This document shows positions 3,956-63,719 of a stretch of DNA of 64,000 nucleotides, piece after piece (the first letter of the stretch is position 1; every line of letters starts with the position of its first letter). The position numbers and the translations under genes are program-made. A model generated the notes under the pieces. The model searched no databases. It had not been told where the DNA came from and saw only the letters and a list, made by a program, of their open reading frames with translations. Location of the stretch: positions 1 through 64,000 of the forward strand of contig BAYV01000009.1 of the NCBI GenBank assembly GCA_000710935.1, in the 5' to 3' direction. The DNA is from Iodidimonas nitroreducens. GTDB lineage: Bacteria > Pseudomonadota > Alphaproteobacteria > Sphingomonadales > Rhodothalassiaceae.

Positions 3956-4119
3956 GGCTGTTAACTTCGGGGAGAAGTCAGGAATGTTGTTTTCCTGGCA
4001 GCTTATGCAGATGAGGGGCGTTTTCCCTTGCATCCCGGGGCGGCTATGGGTAGGAAAGACGCATTCCGCACATGAGCCGCTGGGCAGGGTGATCGGCAGA
4101 TCACATCCGCCTTCCGGTG

Positions 4120-4136
4120 TTTCCCATTTGGGGAAA
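4120..4136 (+). promoter_or_regulatory. Hairpin in the rpsB leader
   Basis: TTTCCC and GGGAAA form a perfect six-pair stem with a five-base ATTTG loop, 43 bases before the rpsB ATG and outside the ribosome-binding site (AAAGGAG, 4164-4170). The dnaB/rpsB intergenic stretch (3892-4179) holds this hairpin and the DnaA box and no convincing gene. S2 autogenously represses its own mRNA in several bacteria, so the hairpin may be part of such a leader; this is inference. Confidence 0.3.
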
Positions 4137-4179
4137 TATTTGGCTCATGGAGGACGAACCGGTAAAGGAGAAGATTACC

Positions 4180-35618: not shown

Positions 35619-38399
35619 TTACTGAATTTTCTTTAGAGACTGAGCGAGAAGGACATAAAGCTTGCCCATATCCGATGAAATCAGGGTCACCGACATGGCG
35701 CTATGGCGATCGCGTGTTGAAATCTGTTCCATCAGGGCTTCAAAATCACGGAAGAATTTCAATACGGTATCGCGAAATTCACGATCATTTTCAAACATCT
35801 GGGTGATGCGTTGGCGGGTTTTCCGATCCGCCATGCGCACCGCCCGGCGCGAAAAGATGGAGCGATCACCGGACAGATAGCGCTGCCACACCTCATCGGG
35901 CACATCATCATCAAGAATTTTATCGATATCCACCGAAGCCGAATGCAGGCTATCCACCAGAAGCGACGATGTTCTGACAAATTCATCGCTGGAGGCGGCC
36001 AGCAGGCGGCGCTCCACCTCCTCGGATTTACTGAGAAAGCTGTTGGCTTTATGGATCAGCTTATCGGTTTGTTCCGCCAGCCTTTTGGCCATGCGTTCGC
36101 TTTCTTCGCCGGCATCATTGGCCGCCTGCCGCAGATGCATAACGGTTTCATTCATCGACTTTGACACCCGGTGTTCCATATCCGCAACACCCTGATCAAA
36201 CAGGCTATTGAGGCTTTCCATCGAGGCCCCGACATCTTCCAGGCTGCGGCTGATGCTTTCCGACAGATTGCGCTCGAAGCTTTCCGATGAGTCTTTGGCG
36301 CTGGTTTCAGCGCGTGCGGCAAGAACAATGATCTGTTCGGCAGCATGGGAAAAGCGCTGGGCGATTTCATCGAGACGATTGCCGGTATCATCGCCAGCCT
36401 CGCGGAGGAGGGCGGCTTTATCGGTGACGATCTGGGCAATATCCTGCAAGCGGCTGGCGGCTTCGCTGGTATCGTCCAGCACCCGCTTGCGCTCGCCACC
36501 AAAAGCCGTGGCCGCCTGGCCCAGGGATTGGGATGACCGTTCCAGAACATCCATCAGCCCTTCACCCTCATTTTTCAATTGCCGGATAGTGCTTTCCAGG
36601 GCATTGGCGGTCTGGTTGCTGCGATCCTTGAGCTGTTCGATTTCATCGCCCAGGCCCTGGCTGCTTTCCTTCAGGCGGGCGGATGTGCTTTCAGCTTGCT
36701 GGCTCAGGCTTTCAGACTGTTTGCGGAATTGTTCTGCGGCATCGAGAACAGTGCTGCTGCTGGCTTTTGAAGCTTCGGCCAAAGCGCCGCGCTCATGCTC
36801 CAGCTTTTGGGTGACATCATCAACACGACGCCGCATATCCTCCAGAACCTGACCGAGATTGACAGAGCGTTCATCCATACGCTCCCCGGCTTCACCCATA
36901 TTGCGCGCCGCATCGCCCGCCGCCGAGGCGACCATTTCCGCCTGATCAGCCAGCATGGTGGCAAGCCGGCTCAATTCCTCGACACTGCGGGTGGCGCGAT
37001 TTTCCACGGCGCCGGCTTCCTGATCGAAGCTGGATTTGAGATGATCCAGCCTTTCAGCGATCCGGGTGCCCGCCTGATCGGCCCTTTGATCGAATTGATT
37101 AAGCTCATCAGCAAAGCCGGAGAGCATCGTTTTCACCCGTGAAAGGGTATCTTCTGCCTGTTTCTGGGTTAAAAGATCAGCTTCATGGGCCTGATCGGCG
37201 AGATCTTGCGACAAAGCTTTGAAATTATCCCGGGCCTGATCGATGCTGGCGGTGATCACGGCTTTGATTTCAGCCGCCTGTTTTTCAATCAGATGCGCCG
37301 CTTCTTCGGTTTTCCCTATGGCCTGCTCGGCGCGGTCTGAAAGCAGATCGCTGTTCTTATTCAGGGCTTCGGATACACGCTGAGCATCGGTTTCTGAGGA
37401 TTGCGCCAGAAAAGCCAGGCGACCATGGCGTTCCTCCAAGGCTTCGGACAAGGTGCCATCGAGCTTATCCAAGCCTTCCATGCGCTGATGCAAACGGTCG
37501 AGCTGCTGATCCATGGCTTCGCTGATCGCGCTCATTCGGGTTTCAAGGCTTAAAGACAGCCCATCGATGGCCTGAAGGCGACGCGACAGCCCCTGTTCTG
37601 ATGCGGCGATCTGCTCAACGCTGTGATCCGCCGCCCGGATGATATCTTCAGCCCGGGCATCCAGTCGCTTTGACACCTCGTTGATATCTTCATCGGCATG
37701 GGTCGTGGCCATGGAAATGCGCTCGGCAAAACGATCCGCCAGATCCGATGCGCCCGATAGTCTGCGGCCAATCAGCTCTTCGATTTCAAGAAGGGCATCG
37801 CGTTCACGCTGCAGGGCATTCTGGATGGTGGCCGATTTGGCTTCGGCATCGGCGGTCACCGAAAATAGGTCCGCCACTTCCTTTTTGAAACGCGCTTCAA
37901 GGCTATCGATTCGGCTGGCGGCCAGATCAACAGCGGCTTCCACATGATCCATATCATGACGAATTTTGCCAACAAGCTGATCCAGACGCTTTTCGGCATG
38001 TTCGATGGGGGCGAGCGCGCGATCAAGATTGCGCGCAATATTCAGGCGATGTTCCAGCAGGGGATCGGTTCGTTGAAACACCAGCGTGATCAGCCACACC
38101 ACGGCCAAGGGCGAGAATACGCCCCCCACAAGTGCTGAAATGGCCGCTATATCCAAAGGCGCATCGGCCAGAAAATATCCCTTATCCCAGGCAAGAAAAG
38201 CCGCCAAACCCAGCCATATCAGGCTAAAAGCCGAAGCCAGCAGAAAAGACCAAAGCCGCCGCACCCGCGAAATCGAGGGGGTCATGTCCTTCAAAGGAGC
38301 CGCTGTTTCTCGGCCTGACACAGACCCTTGATCAGTGGCCTGATCTTCGGATTGGGCCTCTTGCGGCGGCGGTGGCTGGAAATCCAGTTTGGCGTTCAT
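35619..38399 (-). CDS. Large membrane-anchored coiled-coil protein, TipN-like
   Basis: A 926-residue protein: a Pro/Gln-rich cytoplasmic N-terminus (about 50 residues), two membrane helices (residues about 52-75 and 85-110), then roughly 650 residues of nearly uninterrupted charged coiled coil full of Ala, Asp, Glu and Gln, and a compact C-terminal domain of about 130 residues containing ILDDDVPDEVWQRYLSGDRSIFSRRAVRM. This layout matches the Caulobacter polarity factor TipN; annotation pipelines often call such proteins apolipoprotein- or kinesin-like for composition only. ATG 38399 has GGGA six bases upstream; 38426 is an alternative. Divergent from an Hpt gene. TipN identity is inference. 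Confidence 0.55.
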   Translation of the reverse strand: MNAKLDFQPPPPQEAQSEDQATDQGSVSGRETAAPLKDMTPSISRVRRLWSFLLASAFSLIWLGLAAFLAWDKGYFLADAPLDIAAISALVGGVFSPLAVVWLITLVFQRTDPLLEHRLNIARNLDRALAPIEHAEKRLDQLVGKIRHDMDHVEAAVDLAASRIDSLEARFKKEVADLFSVTADAEAKSATIQNALQRERDALLEIEELIGRRLSGASDLADRFAERISMATTHADEDINEVSKRLDARAEDIIRAADHSVEQIAASEQGLSRRLQAIDGLSLSLETRMSAISEAMDQQLDRLHQRMEGLDKLDGTLSEALEERHGRLAFLAQSSETDAQRVSEALNKNSDLLSDRAEQAIGKTEEAAHLIEKQAAEIKAVITASIDQARDNFKALSQDLADQAHEADLLTQKQAEDTLSRVKTMLSGFADELNQFDQRADQAGTRIAERLDHLKSSFDQEAGAVENRATRSVEELSRLATMLADQAEMVASAAGDAARNMGEAGERMDERSVNLGQVLEDMRRRVDDVTQKLEHERGALAEASKASSSTVLDAAEQFRKQSESLSQQAESTSARLKESSQGLGDEIEQLKDRSNQTANALESTIRQLKNEGEGLMDVLERSSQSLGQAATAFGGERKRVLDDTSEAASRLQDIAQIVTDKAALLREAGDDTGNRLDEIAQRFSHAAEQIIVLAARAETSAKDSSESFERNLSESISRSLEDVGASMESLNSLFDQGVADMEHRVSKSMNETVMHLRQAANDAGEESERMAKRLAEQTDKLIHKANSFLSKSEEVERRLLAASSDEFVRTSSLLVDSLHSASVDIDKILDDDVPDEVWQRYLSGDRSIFSRRAVRMADRKTRQRITQMFENDREFRDTVLKFFRDFEALMEQISTRDRHSAMSVTLISSDMGKLYVLLAQSLKKIQ

Positions 38400-38515
38400 A
38401 TCATATCCCGATGGGGCTTGTGCCACGCTTGCTCAATGGGTCATTGAAGGTGCATGATGCCCGAATTGACCTTCATCATGATTTAAATTCTTTTCGCATT
38501 CTGGAAAGCCATTCC

Positions 38516-38839
38516 ATGTCTTCTCTTCAACCAAATGGGGATGATCCCATTGATCTTGCCCATCTTGACAATTTTACATCCGGTGACAAGACCTTGCAGT
38601 CGGATGTTTTAAAACTCTTTCTTGATCATGTGCCCGCCTATCTTGATCAGCTTGATGATACGACATCCGATCAAAGGAAGGAACAGCTTCACAGATTAAA
38701 GGGAACGGCGCGATCCGTGGGGGCCTGGCCACTGGCAAAGCTGGCGGAAAAGGCCGAGCAGGCGGATTTTGACGAGCAGCTTCCTCTGATCCGGGCCATG
38801 CGCGAGGAATTTGCGCGGCTGAAGGCCTTTCTGCCTTAG
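38516..38839 (+). CDS. Histidine phosphotransfer (Hpt) domain protein
   Basis: A 107-residue single-domain Hpt protein. The phospho-accepting His59 is in LHRLKGTARSVGAWPLA, the canonical HxLKG motif, inside a four-helix-bundle pattern with VLKLFLDHVPAYLDQL before it. Such proteins relay phosphate between hybrid kinases and response regulators. ATG 38516 begins MSSLQPNGDDP; in-frame codons upstream run into the divergent coiled-coil gene and are unlikely. It heads a plus-strand group with the pseudo-receiver and a second Hpt-like protein. Confidence 0.88.
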   Translation: MSSLQPNGDDPIDLAHLDNFTSGDKTLQSDVLKLFLDHVPAYLDQLDDTTSDQRKEQLHRLKGTARSVGAWPLAKLAEKAEQADFDEQLPLIRAMREEFARLKAFLP

Positions 38840-38941
38840 GATCAGAACCCGGGGCATTTCTGTGTAATATTATTGAAAAATTTACGTTATTCAGCCTTAC
38901 ATAGGCTTTGCGGAACTGTCTTCGGGTGGGTCGAGGCTTCA

Positions 38942-39493
38942 ATGGCTGATTATGATTTTGAAAAACTATGTGTTCTTGTTGTTGAGGACAGCCTTTTCAT
39001 CAGGTCCCTTTTAATCAATTCACTGCGAATATTGGGGGTGGGAAAGGTTTTTGCCGTTGATCATGGGGGCGAGGCCATTCATTTCCTGAAAAAGGTAAAA
39101 GAAGATCCCATGGCTGCGGGCACGCAGGAAGTGGATATCGTGATTTCAAATTGGCAGATGTCGCCGGTGGATGGCATGATTTTACTGCGCTGGGCGCGCC
39201 GCCATAAGGAAAGCCCGGATCGCTTCATTCCGTTCATTCTGATTACCGGCTATTCCGAACCCAAAAGGGTGCATGAAGCCCGCGATATGGGGGTCACTGA
39301 ATTTCTGGCCAAACCTTTTACCATCCATGCCATTGGTAATAAATTGATTTCGATCATCGAACGGCAGCGGCAATTCGTTCATACGCGCTCTTATTTCGGG
39401 CCCGACAGGCGGCGGCGCACGGTTGAAATTCCTTTTGAAGATCGGCGGCATCTGACCGATAAAAGCCCCGGTGTGGAGATAGTGCGTGGCTGA
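38942..39493 (+). CDS. CheY-like receiver protein lacking the phospho-acceptor Asp
   Basis: A 183-residue stand-alone receiver. The fold is clear: CVLVVEDSLFIRSLL (acidic pocket Glu15, Asp16), LITGYSEP (switch Thr) and FLAKPFT (conserved Lys). At the phosphorylation site, where CheY has ISDWNMP, this protein has ISNWQMS: Asn70, codon AAT at 39149-39151. It is therefore likely a pseudo-receiver that signals without phosphorylation. A basic C-terminal tail carries YFGPDRRRR, a motif of many alphaproteobacterial receivers. ATG 38942; its 3' end overlaps the next gene by eight bases. Confidence 0.85.
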   Translation: MADYDFEKLCVLVVEDSLFIRSLLINSLRILGVGKVFAVDHGGEAIHFLKKVKEDPMAAGTQEVDIVISNWQMSPVDGMILLRWARRHKESPDRFIPFILITGYSEPKRVHEARDMGVTEFLAKPFTIHAIGNKLISIIERQRQFVHTRSYFGPDRRRRTVEIPFEDRRHLTDKSPGVEIVRG

Positions 39494-40004
39494 TCCCAAT
39501 GAAAAAAAAGCGCCCACAATCGTCCGCTTTTACCGCTTTCGCAATCGGTTGAAGGAAAAAACCCATGGCTTGGCCGGTGGCAAGGGGGGGATTTCCGCTG
39601 AGGCTTTGGAAGCGGCTGAAAAAGCCCTTGAATCCATGGCCGAGGATTATCCCGATTGGGTATCGGGTTTGATCACCAAATTGGCCGAACAGCATGGCCG
39701 CTGTGTGGATACCCCCGAAGATCGCCGCGATCATTTCGAGGAAATCAATCGGATCGCCCATGATATGAAGGGGCAGGGTGGTACCTTCGGCTTTCCCCTG
39801 ATCACTGATTTTGCCGATTCCCTTTATAATTTCACCACAATTCGCAATGATATTAATGATCGCATGGTGGAATTGGTGAAAGCCCATATCGATGCCATGC
39901 GGGCGGTGATCAAAGGTCGGATCAAAGGTGATGGCGGGGAGATGGGCCAACAGCTTTCGGCCACATTGCAAAAAGCCATCGAATCCTACAAAAAAGGCGA
40001 TTGA
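39486..40004 (+). CDS. Second Hpt-like protein
   Basis: A 172-residue protein with a basic N-terminus (FYRFRNRLKEK), an amphipathic region and a C-terminal Hpt-like helical bundle. The likely phospho-accepting residue is His92 in IAHDMKGQGGTFGFPLI, similar to HDxKG-type Hpt sites. No kinase or receiver domain is present. It starts inside the receiver gene (eight-base overlap), so the two are translationally coupled and probably form a pair. The partner kinase is not identified; the hybrid kinase at 61-63.7 kb is too far to assume a link. Confidence 0.75.
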   Translation: MADPNEKKAPTIVRFYRFRNRLKEKTHGLAGGKGGISAEALEAAEKALESMAEDYPDWVSGLITKLAEQHGRCVDTPEDRRDHFEEINRIAHDMKGQGGTFGFPLITDFADSLYNFTTIRNDINDRMVELVKAHIDAMRAVIKGRIKGDGGEMGQQLSATLQKAIESYKKGD

Positions 40005-46130: not shown

Positions 46131-46727
46131 TTAGCAGCTTTGGGGAAGCCCGTCCGGGGTGATCTGATCCATGGCCCCGAAACGCGGCCTGAAGCTGGCA
46201 CTGGACCTTAGATCAACAGCATCGATGAAGCCGGCAAAAATCAAAGGCTCATAATGAAAATAAGCTTCAGCAATGATCGCCATATCCCCTTCACCCAGAG
46301 ACAGGCTTCCCGGAAGAGCAAGCTGTGTCTCTCCCTCATTGCCGATTTCACTCATCAAGCCGATAAGCGCCCCTTCGCATCGCTGCCAGTTGATCTTGTT
46401 GCCCTGATTGGCCGTGCCGATGGCCCCGCTCAAGATCACCCGACCTTGCTGGTTCATATCGAATGGCTTTGAAACATGGTTCATCGCAGCGAAAATCTGG
46501 GCGATCTCGTTTTCCGTAATGCCATCCTCTGCCTGCGACACCATATCCGCCATGGAAGATGCCAAAGACGACAATTTCTGATTGGCCAGCATGAAACGGC
46601 CCATTTCCACGGCTCCCGCCAGCAAAAGCAGCAGCACAGGAAGAACCAGCGCCGTTTCAATCAGGATCGAACCTTTTTGATTGTGATGCATCGAAAGCAT
46701 CGGCTTCAGCCGCGATCTCAACTGCAT
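46131..46727 (-). CDS. TadE-like minor pseudopilin
   Basis: A 198-residue protein with the TadE layout: short basic N-terminus, GSILIETALVLPVLLLLLAGAVEMGRF (prepilin-like hydrophobic segment with the Glu that TadE-like proteins use), then a globular periplasmic domain. TadE/F proteins are minor components of tight-adherence (Flp) pili. It overlaps the upstream tadE-like gene by ten bases, so they are coupled. No tadZABCD, cpaB or flp gene is in the window, so this is a detached part of a Tad system. Confidence 0.78.
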   Translation of the reverse strand: MQLRSRLKPMLSMHHNQKGSILIETALVLPVLLLLLAGAVEMGRFMLANQKLSSLASSMADMVSQAEDGITENEIAQIFAAMNHVSKPFDMNQQGRVILSGAIGTANQGNKINWQRCEGALIGLMSEIGNEGETQLALPGSLSLGEGDMAIIAEAYFHYEPLIFAGFIDAVDLRSSASFRPRFGAMDQITPDGLPQSC

Positions 46728-47368
46728 AAAATGGCCCCCCCGGTGGAACTATCTTCTTCCAGCAGATTATAAGGCTCATTCCGCACGGCGGTGGAAGCCT
46801 GAAGCCCGATCGCGCCTTTATCGGAGCCGGTCATAAATGCAAAAGCCGGGGTGATCAGCTTTAATTGTATCTGCGCATCATAAACGACGATGGCCCCGGA
46901 ACCGCCCAGCCCCGATGCGCCCATATCCGCATCCCATTGCCCATTTTGATTGATATCGGTGAAACATTCGCCGCTATCATAAACATCATTGGCATTGTCA
47001 TCGCTGAAGGGCTCGGGTTTTCCGATATCGGCAAAACTCTCATAAACTTTTGTCTCGATCACAACCGGCCCGACAAGAGTAAAATTTTCCATCATGTCGA
47101 GAACCCGGCTACGAACATAGCTTTCTCGCGAGCCATCAACGGGCACGAAGCCGGTGACGCCGCGTCTGGATGCTTCGCGTACGGCACCTTCAAGGGTAGC
47201 ATTGGCAAAGCTGATATGCCCGATTTCAACGATTCCCATGGTCAGCCCGATGATAATGGGAAACGCAATCGCAAATTCCACGATGGCTGATCCCGCCCTG
47301 CATCGGCAGAAATCGCGTGCCTTATGGTAAAACATCTGTTTATCAGGCATCTGTGCGTTCTCATGCAT
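46718..47368 (-). CDS. TadE-family pseudopilin with a calcium-loop-like segment
   Basis: A 216-residue TadE-family protein. The N-terminal part has AGSAIVEFAIAFPIIIGLTMGIVEIG, with the Glu at position +5 of the hydrophobic segment, then ATLEGAVREASRRGVTG, a TadE hallmark. Between about residues 125 and 150 it holds an Asp/Asn-rich loop, DINQNGQWDADMG, which matches the spacing of EF-hand or dockerin-type calcium loops. First gene of the minus-strand pair, divergent from the VWA/TadG gene. Likely exported and processed by a prepilin peptidase encoded elsewhere. Confidence 0.82.
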   Translation of the reverse strand: MHENAQMPDKQMFYHKARDFCRCRAGSAIVEFAIAFPIIIGLTMGIVEIGHISFANATLEGAVREASRRGVTGFVPVDGSRESYVRSRVLDMMENFTLVGPVVIETKVYESFADIGKPEPFSDDNANDVYDSGECFTDINQNGQWDADMGASGLGGSGAIVVYDAQIQLKLITPAFAFMTGSDKGAIGLQASTAVRNEPYNLLEEDSSTGGAILCS

Positions 47369-47421
47369 TCATAAAGTATTGAATGTTAATCGATGGTTCC
47401 TAATAATGTGTTCCCGGTTAT

Positions 47422-47436
47422 TTAAATATTCGTGAA
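47422..47436. promoter_or_regulatory. CtrA-like site between the tad genes
   Basis: TTAA-ATATTCG-TGAA differs by one base from the CtrA consensus TTAA-N7-TTAA. It lies in the 150-base AT-rich gap between the divergent tadE-like and VWA genes, where both promoters must be. CtrA controls pilus genes in Caulobacter; a single near match in AT-rich DNA is weak evidence. Confidence 0.25.
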
Positions 47437-47518
47437 AATATTCTTTATTCTTTAACGGGCTGTTCAGTCCTCTCTGTCAGTCTCATATTTATACGAATCC
47501 AACCATGCGGAGGGGAGC

Positions 47519-49231
47519 ATGAAAATGCTGTCAGTTTGGCGAATGGGGCTTTGTGCTCTTGTAAAAGCGCGCCCCCTGCTCCCTTCTATTCCACATCGCT
47601 TATGGCGGGAAAAATCGGGTTCGATGCTGGTTTGGGTCGCGGTTTCGCTGATCCCGCTGGTGGTTTCTGTTGGTATGGCCACCGATATTGCCCGTGGCTT
47701 TGTCATGCGTTCGCAGCTCAATACGGCTTTGGATGCCGCGGCTTTGGCGGGCGGACGGGCCTTCAATCTGCCCAGCCGCGATGATGATGTGCGCAATTAT
47801 TTTGCGGCCAATTTTCCCAGCGGATTCATGGGGGCTACCTTAGGTGAGCTTGAAATCGAACCGCTGGAAATCCCCGGAGAGCCGGAACGCCTGCGGGTAT
47901 CGGCGTCCGTTGAAATGCCAACCCTGTTCATGAAGCTTGTCGGCATCGAAGAGATGAGCGTGGGCACCAGCGCTGAAGTCACCCGTGAAAATCTGGGGCT
48001 GCAGGCCGTTCTGGTGCTGGATCATACCGGTTCGATGAAGGGATCAAAGATCAATGCCCTGGAAGATGCCAGCATCGATCTGGTTGATATTCTGTTCGGC
48101 AATAAGAAAAACCAGCCCCATGATCGCTTGAGTATTGCCATCGTTCCCTATTCGGCCGCCGTAAATGTAGGCGATCTGGGTAGTTCTTTCCTTGATTTCA
48201 GCGGCATTCCACCGGAATTTTTCTATAAACCCAATGATGACAGGAAATGGAAAGGCTGCGTGCTGGCGCGGGAAACCCTCACCTCGCTCAGTTCCAATCC
48301 CAATGTGCTTGATGTCGGGGCGTGGGATATCAGCCTGGCCCCGCCTGCCGTTGGCGGGAAATGGCGGCCCTATATGTATCCGCATTGGTATGATAATAAA
48401 TATCGCAGCTTTCCATTTCAGGATGATGTAGACCCCCGCGACCCCGGTAAAAATGCCGGCAGCAATCTCGATGGTGTTTTTGATGCCAAGGCCTATCGCC
48501 AGGGCAAAGGCCCCGATGGTGAGGTCTGGAGCAATCCAAACACCAATCCATCATTGGGCAATGCCTATACCGGCCCCAATATCGGCTGCCCTGCCGAGGT
48601 GATGACATTCAACAATAATTATGATCAGGTTATTGATTATATTAAAGACAATACAATCGCCTGGTCGCGCGGGGGCACCATTGGCAGTGAAGGTTTAATG
48701 TGGGGCTGGCGGATGCTCGATCCCGAACCGCCCTTCCCCAATATGGTTCCTTATAATGATCCGGCAACGGTGAAGGCCCTTGTGATGATGACCGATGGGG
48801 TGAATGAGGTCTTCCGCTGGCCCCATAATCAATATGCCAAAACCGCTTCTAACGGCCGTCGCTCCGAACCTGAGAATGATGGATCGGATATGCCGGAATC
48901 CGATTATACCGCTTATGGGCGTCTTGATGATGGCCGCTTGGGGACGACGAATATCAATGTCGCGGCCGAGGCCATCAATCTCAGAATGATCAAGGCCTGT
49001 GCGGCGATGAAGATGGGCGGGGTGAATGGTCAGGATCGGGTGCAGATCTATACCGTTATTTTTGGAGGTTTCGCGACTGAAAACAGCCCCAGAGCCAGAA
49101 ATCTTCGAGAGCTTTATCAAGATTGTGCATCGCGCCCGGCGAATGCCTTTCTGGCCCCCAGCAATGAAGATCTGCGGTCTGCGTTCCGCACCATCGGCAA
49201 TGATCTCGCCAATCTGCATCTCAGCCGCTGA
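47519..49231 (+). CDS. TadG-like pilus assembly protein with von Willebrand A domain
   Basis: A 570-residue protein with the TadG N-terminus: GSMLVWVAVSLIPLVVSVGMATDIARG membrane segment and QLNTALDAAALAGGRA. After it comes a VWA domain opening AVLVLDHTGSMKGSKINAL, an intact MIDAS DxTGS, ending near LAPSNEDLRSAFRTIGNDL. The VWA domain carries long insertions (residues about 230-400) rich in Asn, Pro and aromatic residues. TadG-type proteins help Flp pilus assembly and may be surface adhesins. Divergent from the tadE-like genes. The MIDAS implies metal-dependent ligand binding; the ligand is unknown. Confidence 0.85.
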   Translation: MKMLSVWRMGLCALVKARPLLPSIPHRLWREKSGSMLVWVAVSLIPLVVSVGMATDIARGFVMRSQLNTALDAAALAGGRAFNLPSRDDDVRNYFAANFPSGFMGATLGELEIEPLEIPGEPERLRVSASVEMPTLFMKLVGIEEMSVGTSAEVTRENLGLQAVLVLDHTGSMKGSKINALEDASIDLVDILFGNKKNQPHDRLSIAIVPYSAAVNVGDLGSSFLDFSGIPPEFFYKPNDDRKWKGCVLARETLTSLSSNPNVLDVGAWDISLAPPAVGGKWRPYMYPHWYDNKYRSFPFQDDVDPRDPGKNAGSNLDGVFDAKAYRQGKGPDGEVWSNPNTNPSLGNAYTGPNIGCPAEVMTFNNNYDQVIDYIKDNTIAWSRGGTIGSEGLMWGWRMLDPEPPFPNMVPYNDPATVKALVMMTDGVNEVFRWPHNQYAKTASNGRRSEPENDGSDMPESDYTAYGRLDDGRLGTTNINVAAEAINLRMIKACAAMKMGGVNGQDRVQIYTVIFGGFATENSPRARNLRELYQDCASRPANAFLAPSNEDLRSAFRTIGNDLANLHLSR

Positions 49232-61061: not shown

Positions 61062-63719
61062 ATGCTGAATAACCCTCATGTTCTGTCGCGATTATCAGAG
61101 TCCCGCTTTCTGGACTATTTTGAACATATCGGTCGCGGCATCATCATTTTTGACAAGCATTTCAAATATATCTGGTCCAATCGAAATTTTCGCGAGATGA
61201 TGGGCTATCCTGAGCATTATTATCAGGATGACATGCTGATCGATCAATTTGTGGCCTATGATTGCAAACGGGGCCTTTATGGCACAGCAAGGCCAGAGAT
61301 CGTTGCGGCTGAATTAAAGGCTGAACTCGGCGCCTCTGATACATCGTCCATCGAGATCGAAATCCCCAATGGCCCGATCGTGCAATTGGATCGTCGCATG
61401 GCAGCCGATGGAAGCTATGTATATGAATGCACCAATGTCACCCATCTGCGCTCTGAAACAGAACGCAGCGCGCAGGATACGGCCATCATTCAGCAGCTAT
61501 CGGATGGTGTGGTTGTCGCCAATCTGGATTATCGGCTGATCTATTTCAATTCCGCTTATCTCAAGCTTTTCAGCTTTGCCCTCAAAGACCCCAATGCCAT
61601 GTTTTTGCCGCCTCATGGCATGGCCGCGACGATGGAATTTCAGGCCTTTACCAAAGCCATGGACAGCGCCATTGCCGATCATGGGCGCTATGAATGTGAA
61701 TTGCGCATCAAGGGACAGGATGACGAGGAAAAGATCATCCATAGCACCTGCCTGCCGCGCCGCGATATTGCAGGACACCATATCGGCTATATTGGTATTT
61801 TCCGCGATATAACCAAAAGCGCCCATGATCGGGCGCGATTGGAACGCCAGAATCGGGTGATTTCACAATTGAACGATTCCGTGGTGATTGCCGATCACAA
61901 TGGCAAAATAACCGATTGCAATCCTGCGACCATCGATATCTTCGGCTATGAGCTTGATGAGCTAAAGGGCAAGCGGCTGCTCGAAACCGTTCAGATGTAT
62001 AAAAATACCGGCAGCATGAAGCTGTTTGTCATGAATGCCTTGAAAACCGGCGGAAGCTGGAATGGCGAGCTTAATCTGCGCCACAAGGATGGGCATCTCG
62101 TGGTCATGGATTGCAATGTTCAGCCCTTTTTCGATGAGCATGGCAATCGTATCGGAATGATTGGGGTGCATCGCGATATCACCAAACGCCAGCGCGCGGA
62201 AATGGAGATCAAGCAGCAAAACCAGATCATCGAGCATATGTGGGAAGCGGTAATCATTACCGATCCCCAAGGCCGCATCGAAGAATATAATGCCAGCGCT
62301 AGCCGCATTTTGGGCCTGCATGATAAACGCCCGGCCAATGAAGCCTGCAAGCAGCATCTGATCCAGATTACCGATAATGTTAAGAAAACGGGCCGCCATG
62401 AGGAGGAATATGTCATCGGCGATCCGGCCAGCCCTGATGCGATTTACATGGATTGCCTCGCCATGCCGGTCATCGGCCGGGATGGGGATGTTGTCAGGAT
62501 CGTCAGCGTGCATCGCGATGTAACAGACCGGATTCGCCGACAAAAAGAGCAGGATGAACGGACGATTCAAAAAGAGCGGTCCATGCGCCTTGAATCTTTG
62601 GGAAAAATTGCCGGGGGGATCGCCCATGATTTTAACAATCTGCTGACCCCGGTTCTGGGCTATGCACATCTGGCAAGATCAGCGGCTGAAAAAGAGTCAC
62701 CCGTTTATCATGATATTGATCGGGTGATTAAAGGCATGGAAAAAGCCCGCAATCTGGTGCGCCAGATCCTGGCTTTCGGCCAAAAGCTGGATAGCACTCG
62801 GTCTATCGAGGTGTTTGATGATCTGATTGCCACGACCCTAAGCCTCCTTAAAGACAGCTTCCCGCCGTCAGTCGAAGTTTTATGGACTCCAGGCTGCGCC
62901 GATACCCGCATCCAATGCAATAAAACATTAATCGATCAGCTTTTCATGAATTTATGCTGGAATGCAGTGCAGGCCATGCACGAAGGCGGCACATTAAGCA
63001 TCAAAACCGATCAGAAAGGCGATTGGGCAGCGATCCGATCGCAATTTCAACTCAAAGGCGATGATCATGTAAGATTGGTCATCAGCGATACCGGGCCGGG
63101 GATCGACGCCAAAACCAAAAATCACATCTATGAACCGTTTTTCACCACCAAGGGATCATCCAAAAGCCACGGGCTTGGATTGTCGGTGGTGCATGGCGTG
63201 GTCAAGGCCCATGGCGGGACCATTCTTGTGCATAACATCAAGCCTCATGGTGCTTGTTTCGAAATTTATCTGCCTGCCACAAAAGATCATAATATAGCTG
63301 CAAATCAGCCTGAATTCTCAGATAAACATCAATATAGAAACAACAAAGAAACAATTCTGATTATTGATGATGAGGAGGATGTCAGAAAAATTCTAAGAAG
63401 AATGCTCAATGACATGGGTATCAAAACATTGTGTGCCGAAAGCGGACCGCGCGCCATTGAAATAATAAAAAATAATCCCAATATAAATTTGGTGATTACA
63501 GATTATTTAATGCCGGAAATGAGCGGTGAAGATTTCGCGAAAACATTTCGATTGCACAACAAATCCACACCCATTGTTTTGCTCAGTGCCGTCATCGAGC
63601 CAAGAACTGTCAGGGAATATCGCGCTTGGGGCGTTAATGCCTTGTTACAAAAACCGGTTGTGCCCGAAGATCTGTATGAAATGATCTGCGCGCAACTGGA
63701 TGGGGAAAACAAAGCTTGA
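61062..63719 (+). CDS. Hybrid sensor histidine kinase with four PAS domains and a receiver
   Basis: An 885-residue soluble kinase with no membrane helix. Four PAS domains in a row: about residues 8-125, 145-255, 268-380 and 390-500. Then the kinase: HisKA-type dimerisation with His522 in GGIAHDFNNLL, N-box FMNLCWNAVQAM, G1 DTGPGID and G2 KGSSKSHGLGLSVV. A C-terminal receiver (about 760-880) has Asp814 in VITDYLMPEMSG and Lys in LLQKPV. The receiver can pass phosphate to an Hpt protein. An ATG at 61062 near AAGATG starts it. Downstream lies another receiver gene, probably its partner. Confidence 0.88.
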   Translation: MLNNPHVLSRLSESRFLDYFEHIGRGIIIFDKHFKYIWSNRNFREMMGYPEHYYQDDMLIDQFVAYDCKRGLYGTARPEIVAAELKAELGASDTSSIEIEIPNGPIVQLDRRMAADGSYVYECTNVTHLRSETERSAQDTAIIQQLSDGVVVANLDYRLIYFNSAYLKLFSFALKDPNAMFLPPHGMAATMEFQAFTKAMDSAIADHGRYECELRIKGQDDEEKIIHSTCLPRRDIAGHHIGYIGIFRDITKSAHDRARLERQNRVISQLNDSVVIADHNGKITDCNPATIDIFGYELDELKGKRLLETVQMYKNTGSMKLFVMNALKTGGSWNGELNLRHKDGHLVVMDCNVQPFFDEHGNRIGMIGVHRDITKRQRAEMEIKQQNQIIEHMWEAVIITDPQGRIEEYNASASRILGLHDKRPANEACKQHLIQITDNVKKTGRHEEEYVIGDPASPDAIYMDCLAMPVIGRDGDVVRIVSVHRDVTDRIRRQKEQDERTIQKERSMRLESLGKIAGGIAHDFNNLLTPVLGYAHLARSAAEKESPVYHDIDRVIKGMEKARNLVRQILAFGQKLDSTRSIEVFDDLIATTLSLLKDSFPPSVEVLWTPGCADTRIQCNKTLIDQLFMNLCWNAVQAMHEGGTLSIKTDQKGDWAAIRSQFQLKGDDHVRLVISDTGPGIDAKTKNHIYEPFFTTKGSSKSHGLGLSVVHGVVKAHGGTILVHNIKPHGACFEIYLPATKDHNIAANQPEFSDKHQYRNNKETILIIDDEEDVRKILRRMLNDMGIKTLCAESGPRAIEIIKNNPNINLVITDYLMPEMSGEDFAKTFRLHNKSTPIVLLSAVIEPRTVREYRAWGVNALLQKPVVPEDLYEMICAQLDGENKA

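Follow-up and report, generated by a model that had tools for sequence, protein, structure and literature searches.

Within a 64,000-nucleotide stretch of Iodidimonas nitroreducens DNA (assembly GCA_000710935.1, contig BAYV01000009.1, positions 1 to 64,000; hereafter the window) we analyzed a cluster of four genes that encode a large membrane protein with coiled-coil character (the scaffold), two histidine phosphotransfer (Hpt) proteins, Hpt1 and Hpt2, and a CheY-like receiver (Table 1). An original prediction, made by a model from the sequence alone, had described the cluster as a two-helix membrane coiled-coil protein divergent from three small genes, and had read it as a polar or division-site scaffold wired to a phosphorelay. 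Its observations were confirmed and proved correct to the residue, while its interpretation was partly supported: the real unit is a tight and old pair of receiver and Hpt2, and the receiver carries an arginine-rich tail of the type that binds cyclic diguanylate (c-di-GMP), a motif which had been overlooked and which makes this second messenger the likely input.

The open reading frame (ORF) of the scaffold was 926 amino acids long from the first ATG, as predicted (935 from a GTG), and a hydropathy script placed its hydrophobic peaks at residues 61-79 and 99-117. Its coiled coil was assigned on the basis of composition and of weak hits in coiled-coil families, and the match to the apolipoprotein family PF01442 was likewise weak (2.3e-12, 47.5 bits, below the cut-off of 90). 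Hpt1 (48.5 bits) and Hpt2 (31.7 bits) both exceeded the PF01627 cut-off of 24.6 with the predicted His59 and His92 in the HxxKG motif, and the receiver, correctly called as lacking its phospho-acceptor, scored 56.7 bits against a Response_reg cut-off of 30.2. It consists of a single CheY-like domain, for which CheY was also the best NCBIfam name (40 bits, far under that model's cut-off of 189). The predicted overlap between the receiver and Hpt2 genes amounts to 8 bp, the start of Hpt2 lying inside the receiver gene. That these genes are more than chance reading frames was indicated by their identity to Iodidimonas muriae proteins, which was high for the receiver (90%) and Hpt2 (83%) and reached 60% for the scaffold and 49% for Hpt1; the flanking PepN and acyl-CoA dehydrogenase showed 63% and 80%.

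Table 1. Coordinates of the features of the gene cluster in the window of Iodidimonas nitroreducens.
Feature	Position	Strand	Description	Basis
Scaffold gene	35619..38426	minus	Two hydrophobic (transmembrane) segments at the N-terminus, an extended coiled-coil-like region and a C-terminal domain	ORF, hydropathy
Conserved C-terminal domain of scaffold	35622..35996	minus		Profile A3
Divergent intergenic region, scaffold/Hpt1	38427..38515	no strand		
Hpt1	38516..38839	plus	107 amino acids, phospho-His59 in HRLKG	PF01627 1.1e-12
Receiver	38942..39493	plus	CheY-like, 183 amino acids, Asn70 at phospho-acceptor position	PF00072 3.1e-15
Arginine-rich region	39392..39454	plus	YFGPDRRRR...EDRRHL, second copy degenerate, putative c-di-GMP-binding type	Match to Cle motif of PMC5677366
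Hpt2	39486..40004	plus	172 amino acids, His92 in HDMKG; predicted CheA-P1-like four-helix bundle; N-terminal segment N20, L22, K25	PF01627 1.9e-7

The pairing of receiver and Hpt2 was found across the class. In a search of 60 genomes of relatives, including the window genome, Hpt2 was matched in 42, and at each of the 38 loci retrieved the receiver adjoined it. Named genomes yielded 132 relatives when scanned; the 80 best were retained, many of them from genomes also present in the first search, and these 80 loci came from Iodidimonas, Kordiimonas, Eilatimonas, Rhodothalassium, Hankyongella, Oceanibacterium and many metagenome-assembled genomes (Emcibacter and others). The receiver lay directly upstream of Hpt2 in 80/80, the scaffold was divergent upstream of the pair in 51/80 (48/63 where 4.5 kb or more of upstream DNA was available), Hpt1 was present in 32/80, and all four genes stood together in 30/80, including loci of Iodidimonas, Kordiimonas, Eilatimonas and Rhodothalassium. 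Conservation of the neighborhood among relatives, which the original prediction had named as a check, was thereby observed.

Across 387 genomes of the class Alphaproteobacteria, Hpt2 was found in 139, a receiver with the arginine-rich tail (tailed receiver) in 209 and FliM in 219. Considering the best 80 class Hpt2 places listed (window genome left out, and receiver matches likewise taken from those listed), a tailed receiver lay within 700 bp at 64 or more, representing 57 genomes. Receiver and Hpt2 appeared to be fused at 27 of the 64 places (26/57 genomes), where both lay in frames of equal length (349-432 amino acids); because both frames had to be alike, G228 and G338, in which the receiver frame was different, were left out of this count. 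Nine of the fused proteins were translated in frame and contained receiver, arginine-rich tail and Hpt in that order, and all nine carried an Asp at the phosphosite. When three fused proteins were searched against Pfam the receiver was called and the Hpt part was under the cut-off or absent, so such fusions may have been overlooked because Pfam calls only the receiver part. Tandem receiver-Hpt pairs were also seen, three split ones at one locus (L188, genome G243) and two fused ones at another (L189, G094), and a cluster of minus-strand ORFs at 12 of 40 loci with clustered neighbors was apparently an antisense reading of the pair. Among the best-ranked open papers, with subscription papers outside the scope of the search, no description of a receiver-Hpt pair or of a TipN-Hpt link was found.

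The receiver domain is followed by the tail RQFVHTRSYFGPDRRRRTVEIPFEDRRHL. In Caulobacter the Cle proteins bind c-di-GMP through tandem arginine-rich tails of the form [YF]xGP[DE][RK]R and need an Arg in helix 4 as well (Nesper et al., 2017, PMC5677366); for CleD, that source reports that R156 of the first copy is required for binding and that R169 contributes, and that R113 in helix 4 is required for localization and function. The first copy of the motif is complete in the window receiver (YFGPDRR, residues 151-157) and its helix-4 Arg is R114, equated with CleA R111 and CleD R113 by position, the Cle sequences not being part of the alignment. Conservation was assessed in 106 distinct sequences from 139: the helix-4 Arg was present in 106/106 receivers, and all three first-copy Arg as well as the final Arg of the second copy were kept in 105/106, with one gap. 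The phosphosite was more variable (N in 67, D in 38, A in 1). On account of Asn70 the receivers of the window lineage would be incapable of normal phosphate exchange, and the acid pair, Thr and Lys of the active site are retained in the window. Some Kordiimonas relatives have GPERR in the second copy, and in Emcibacter-type loci (L104, L106, L118, L125) the Asp may have been regained. No other tailed receiver was found in the window genome, in which seven other receiver matches were weak and the second best spanned the receiver domain only.

The His of Hpt2 was invariant in the same sample (106/106 distinct sequences), also where the Asp of the receiver was lost. Residues N20, L22 and K25, in an N-terminal segment outside the bundle, were kept in 103 to 105 of 106, and we suggest this segment as a candidate docking segment. 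The structural model of Hpt2 had a mean predicted local distance difference test score (pLDDT) of 79.4, mostly above 80 for residues 61-170 and low at the N-terminus. In a fold comparison, chain 3kyj_A (CheA3-P1 bound to CheY6) aligned to the model over 121 residues with a Z of 14.4 and a root-mean-square deviation of 2.8, and several CheA P1 domains were among the best; designed bundles and further P1 domains scored level with this chain. The predicted CheA-P1-like fold therefore has modest support, since helical bundles match one another easily. On plasmids, Hpt2 gave one weak match only, in Niveispirillum.

The scaffold belongs to a class-wide and mostly single-copy family, defined by its C-terminal domain (125 amino acids in the window member), which had no Pfam match at E up to 1. 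Profile A3 of this domain was found in 155/387 class genomes, in single copy in 153/155, within ORFs of 377 to 2,752 amino acids. Among 49 class loci picked across families, 47 encoded a scaffold with one or more strong hydrophobic segments close to its N-terminus, the other two ending early on short contigs. The model of the domain had a mean pLDDT of 80.6, and none of the 740 chains compared with it reached a Z of 8, which is no proof of a new fold. Family f59 was taken as Caulobacteraceae from CckA scores (G110 at 1,129 bits against a Caulobacter CckA cut-off of 1,000, G355 near it at 976). In its 40 genomes the scaffold domain was found in 27, with one copy and weakly (E 1e-14 to 9e-4, with E up to 0.01 accepted); 20 of these 27 had ORFs of 830-960 amino acids, and scaffold-domain ORFs reached 1,690-2,120 amino acids in two other families. 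TipN has a length of about 880 amino acids. By architecture and size the scaffold fits the TipN/GPR-type polarity scaffolds, and its C-terminal domain offers a handle for tracing TipN/GPR-like proteins across the class.

The annotated flanking genes encode TIM, CTP synthase, acyl-CoA dehydrogenase, PepN (the next gene after Hpt2), P450, Tad pilus proteins and others. A chemotaxis cluster, which the original prediction had named as the context that would speak against it, was ruled out as the setting, as was a flagellar one, with no such gene among these annotated genes, which are part of the window genes. A scan for promoters and terminators gave no more than chance level. A Flp/Tad pilus is represented in the window by TadE and TadE/G-like genes (46131-49231), some 6 kb downstream from the cluster, and a PAS-containing hybrid histidine kinase that also has a receiver, a candidate phosphate donor for the Hpt proteins, is encoded at 61062-63719. 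A match to Rfam RF01815 (rpsB sRNA; 55.5 bits) lies at 4067-4177.

We propose that the receiver and Hpt2 work together as a single cognate switch gated by c-di-GMP, with Hpt1 and the TipN/GPR-like scaffold as polar or divisional partners, a reading to which we assign a probability of about 0.5. The CheY-like receiver would read c-di-GMP through its C-terminal arginine-rich tail and dock on the CheA-P1-like Hpt2, and its c-di-GMP state would either block or open His92; in this way c-di-GMP would control how phosphate from a kinase passes via Hpt2 to a response regulator whose gene lies elsewhere. Because the Hpt2 His is kept in every sequence examined while its neighbor in the window lineage is unphosphorylatable, the receiver most likely acts by binding, and phosphate must arrive from and leave to other proteins. 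The tail would be the seat of a c-di-GMP dimer, and since it lies between receiver and Hpt in the fused proteins, binding of the ligand could alter how accessible His92 is. Where relatives have retained the Asp, as in the nine fused forms, their receiver may in addition accept phosphate or act as a drain for it; in the window lineage this route would have been lost, leaving docking alone. In this group Hpt1 and the scaffold would partner the circuit at a pole or division site, and the scaffold, judging from gene order, would position the switch there. Should the same principle hold across the class, in split and fused forms, with c-di-GMP on the arginine-rich linker directly setting phosphate transfer through the Hpt and one lineage having a pure c-di-GMP-gated cap tethered to a TipN/GPR-type scaffold, the switch would be a widespread one; we regard this extension as tentative and do not expect it on balance. 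To our knowledge, where c-di-GMP and phosphorelay networks are in direct contact in alphaproteobacteria, the contact is mostly made by a kinase, such as CckA or ShkA. If true, the receiver-Hpt unit would be such a junction at the Hpt step, and HmrX-type Hpt proteins would gain a candidate type of partner.

Several results weigh against this proposal. The second tandem copy of the motif is incomplete in the window receiver (IPFEDRR), where GP is lost and the Arg pair kept, and the Asp receivers of the Emcibacter-type loci are nested in the Asn clade, giving a mixed D/N state. Foldseek with the Hpt2 model returned no match at E 0.001 or better, the top match being 8c5v_C at E 0.098, and this weak E-value also limits the support for a P1-like fold. 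At 16 of the best 80 class Hpt2 places no receiver was present among the matches listed nearby, and no tailed receiver was found within 1.5 kb flanks of six Caulobacteraceae Hpt2 relatives. When the neighbors of 40 loci (of 41 selected, one having no centered ORF) were clustered in search of constant partners outside the group, only metabolic genes in related loci emerged. Five relatives in family f6 carry the scaffold domain and have no Hpt2 match.

The last of these points bears on the scaffold, whose linkage to receiver and Hpt2 was observed only in the wider Kordiimonas/Iodidimonas/Emcibacter group. The four genes had originally been taken as one set; the receiver-Hpt2 unit is class-wide and often fused, and no scaffold was found near it at the 20 class loci fetched. 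A polar scaffold is plausible from its TipN/GPR-like architecture; for its wiring to a phosphorelay the backing is gene order in one large group. Scaffold and Hpt1 may then be a separate neighboring module, two unrelated units standing side by side, which would be compatible with a receiver-Hpt2 switch. A scaffold with a divergent Hpt1-like gene and without receiver and Hpt2 beside it occurs in 9/49 class loci (two f6 relatives included), so that scaffold-Hpt1 and receiver-Hpt2 give the impression of two ancient modules that came together in the wider group of the window, and the pair lacks the scaffold in 15/63 named loci with enough upstream DNA; against unrelated units stand the 30/80 named loci with all four genes together. 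We consider this a realistic alternative, though one we would not back at even odds.

The switch itself might instead be a motor effector with an Hpt brake, in which the receiver acts on FliM like Cle and the only role of Hpt2 is to sequester the receiver or let it go. The receiver shares its type of motif with Cle, the window genome has FliM (on the same contig, ~32 kb past the window end), and FliM was found in 46/57 genomes with the adjacent pair against 219/387 overall (odds ratio 3.8, p 4e-5, without correction for kinship). However, 11/57 pair genomes had no FliM match. GGDEF domains were found in all 17 genomes tested (these 11, the window genome with seven, and the five f6 relatives), so that makers of c-di-GMP are available in all 17, and a motor therefore seems not to be required for the pair. 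In the receiver tree, moreover, the receivers of the pair group in a clade of their own, separate from 30 Caulobacteraceae sequences (support 0.67, root set by us), the best 30 from 21 genomes, all with Asp and hence an incomplete set, since CleD has Glu. Taken together this makes a motor effector improbable. The pair could also be a phosphorelay remnant, formerly a normal phosphotransfer pair such as the Asp-bearing fused forms may still be, with the Asn form serving as a constitutive adaptor and the tail put to another use. This would suit the Asp of the nine fused receivers and the acid pair, Thr and Lys still retained in the window receiver, but not an Asn in 67/106 distinct sequences, nor the conservation of tail and helix-4 Arg (105-106/106), which exceeds that of the phospho-acceptor; we judge it unlikely.

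The proposed switch combines parts of known kinds, a Cle-like receiver, a P1-like Hpt and a TipN/GPR-like scaffold, in a new combination. Like Cle, the window receiver is CheY-like with a C-terminal arginine-rich region and a helix-4 Arg, and in the Cle proteins the phospho-acceptor is dispensable (CleA D67A is functional) or replaced (CleD carries Glu70; PMC5677366). It differs in the Asn at its phosphosite and in its degenerate second motif copy, and the receivers of the pair form a separate clade, are paired with or fused to an Hpt, and occur in genomes without a FliM match. As a complete second copy is missing, we call the window receiver Cle-like and do not assign it to Cle.

For Hpt2 the nearest described protein is HmrX (CC_1220) of Caulobacter, a motile-sessile regulator and putative Hpt of the Hmr pathway with H81 and a P1-like predicted fold, whose deletion leads to more biofilm and holdfast and to less spreading (PMC11481889). 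An Hpt2 relative was found in 38/40 Caulobacteraceae genomes, with one copy in 37, and two of these relatives have their His at 80 and 82 (starts chosen by us). We think that Hpt2 and HmrX are relatives, based on copy number, His position and fold, HmrX having been compared by its published description. In Caulobacteraceae the HmrX-like gene lies near an NAD kinase gene at locus L200 and near a DUF2336 protein gene at L199. The hyper-adhesion screen behind hmrX also hit pepN (PMC11481889, table 1), and pepN follows Hpt2 in the window, a coincidence that may be due to chance.

Control of a phosphorelay by a c-di-GMP-gated pseudo-receiver, as proposed here, has an analog in ShkA of Caulobacter, whose pseudo-receiver binds c-di-GMP and gates a phosphorelay protein (review PMC12632262). 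ShkA gates a kinase within a hybrid kinase through its alpha4-beta5-alpha5 face, whereas the partner of the window receiver is an Hpt and its motif is of the Cle tail type. The scaffold, with two N-terminal transmembrane segments, a long helical region and apolipoprotein-like helices, resembles GPR of Agrobacterium (2,115 amino acids, two N-terminal transmembrane segments, apolipoprotein-like helices), itself said to resemble TipN (PMC4460556, PMC8262873, PMC8546619); the tie is one of architecture and size. Finally, a P1-like Hpt adjoining a CheY-type receiver recalls the CheA P1-CheY pair of Rhodobacter (CheA3-P1:CheY6, PDB 3kyj), from which the window differs in having no kinase core, in the missing receiver Asp of its lineage and in the lack of a chemotaxis gene among its annotated neighbors.

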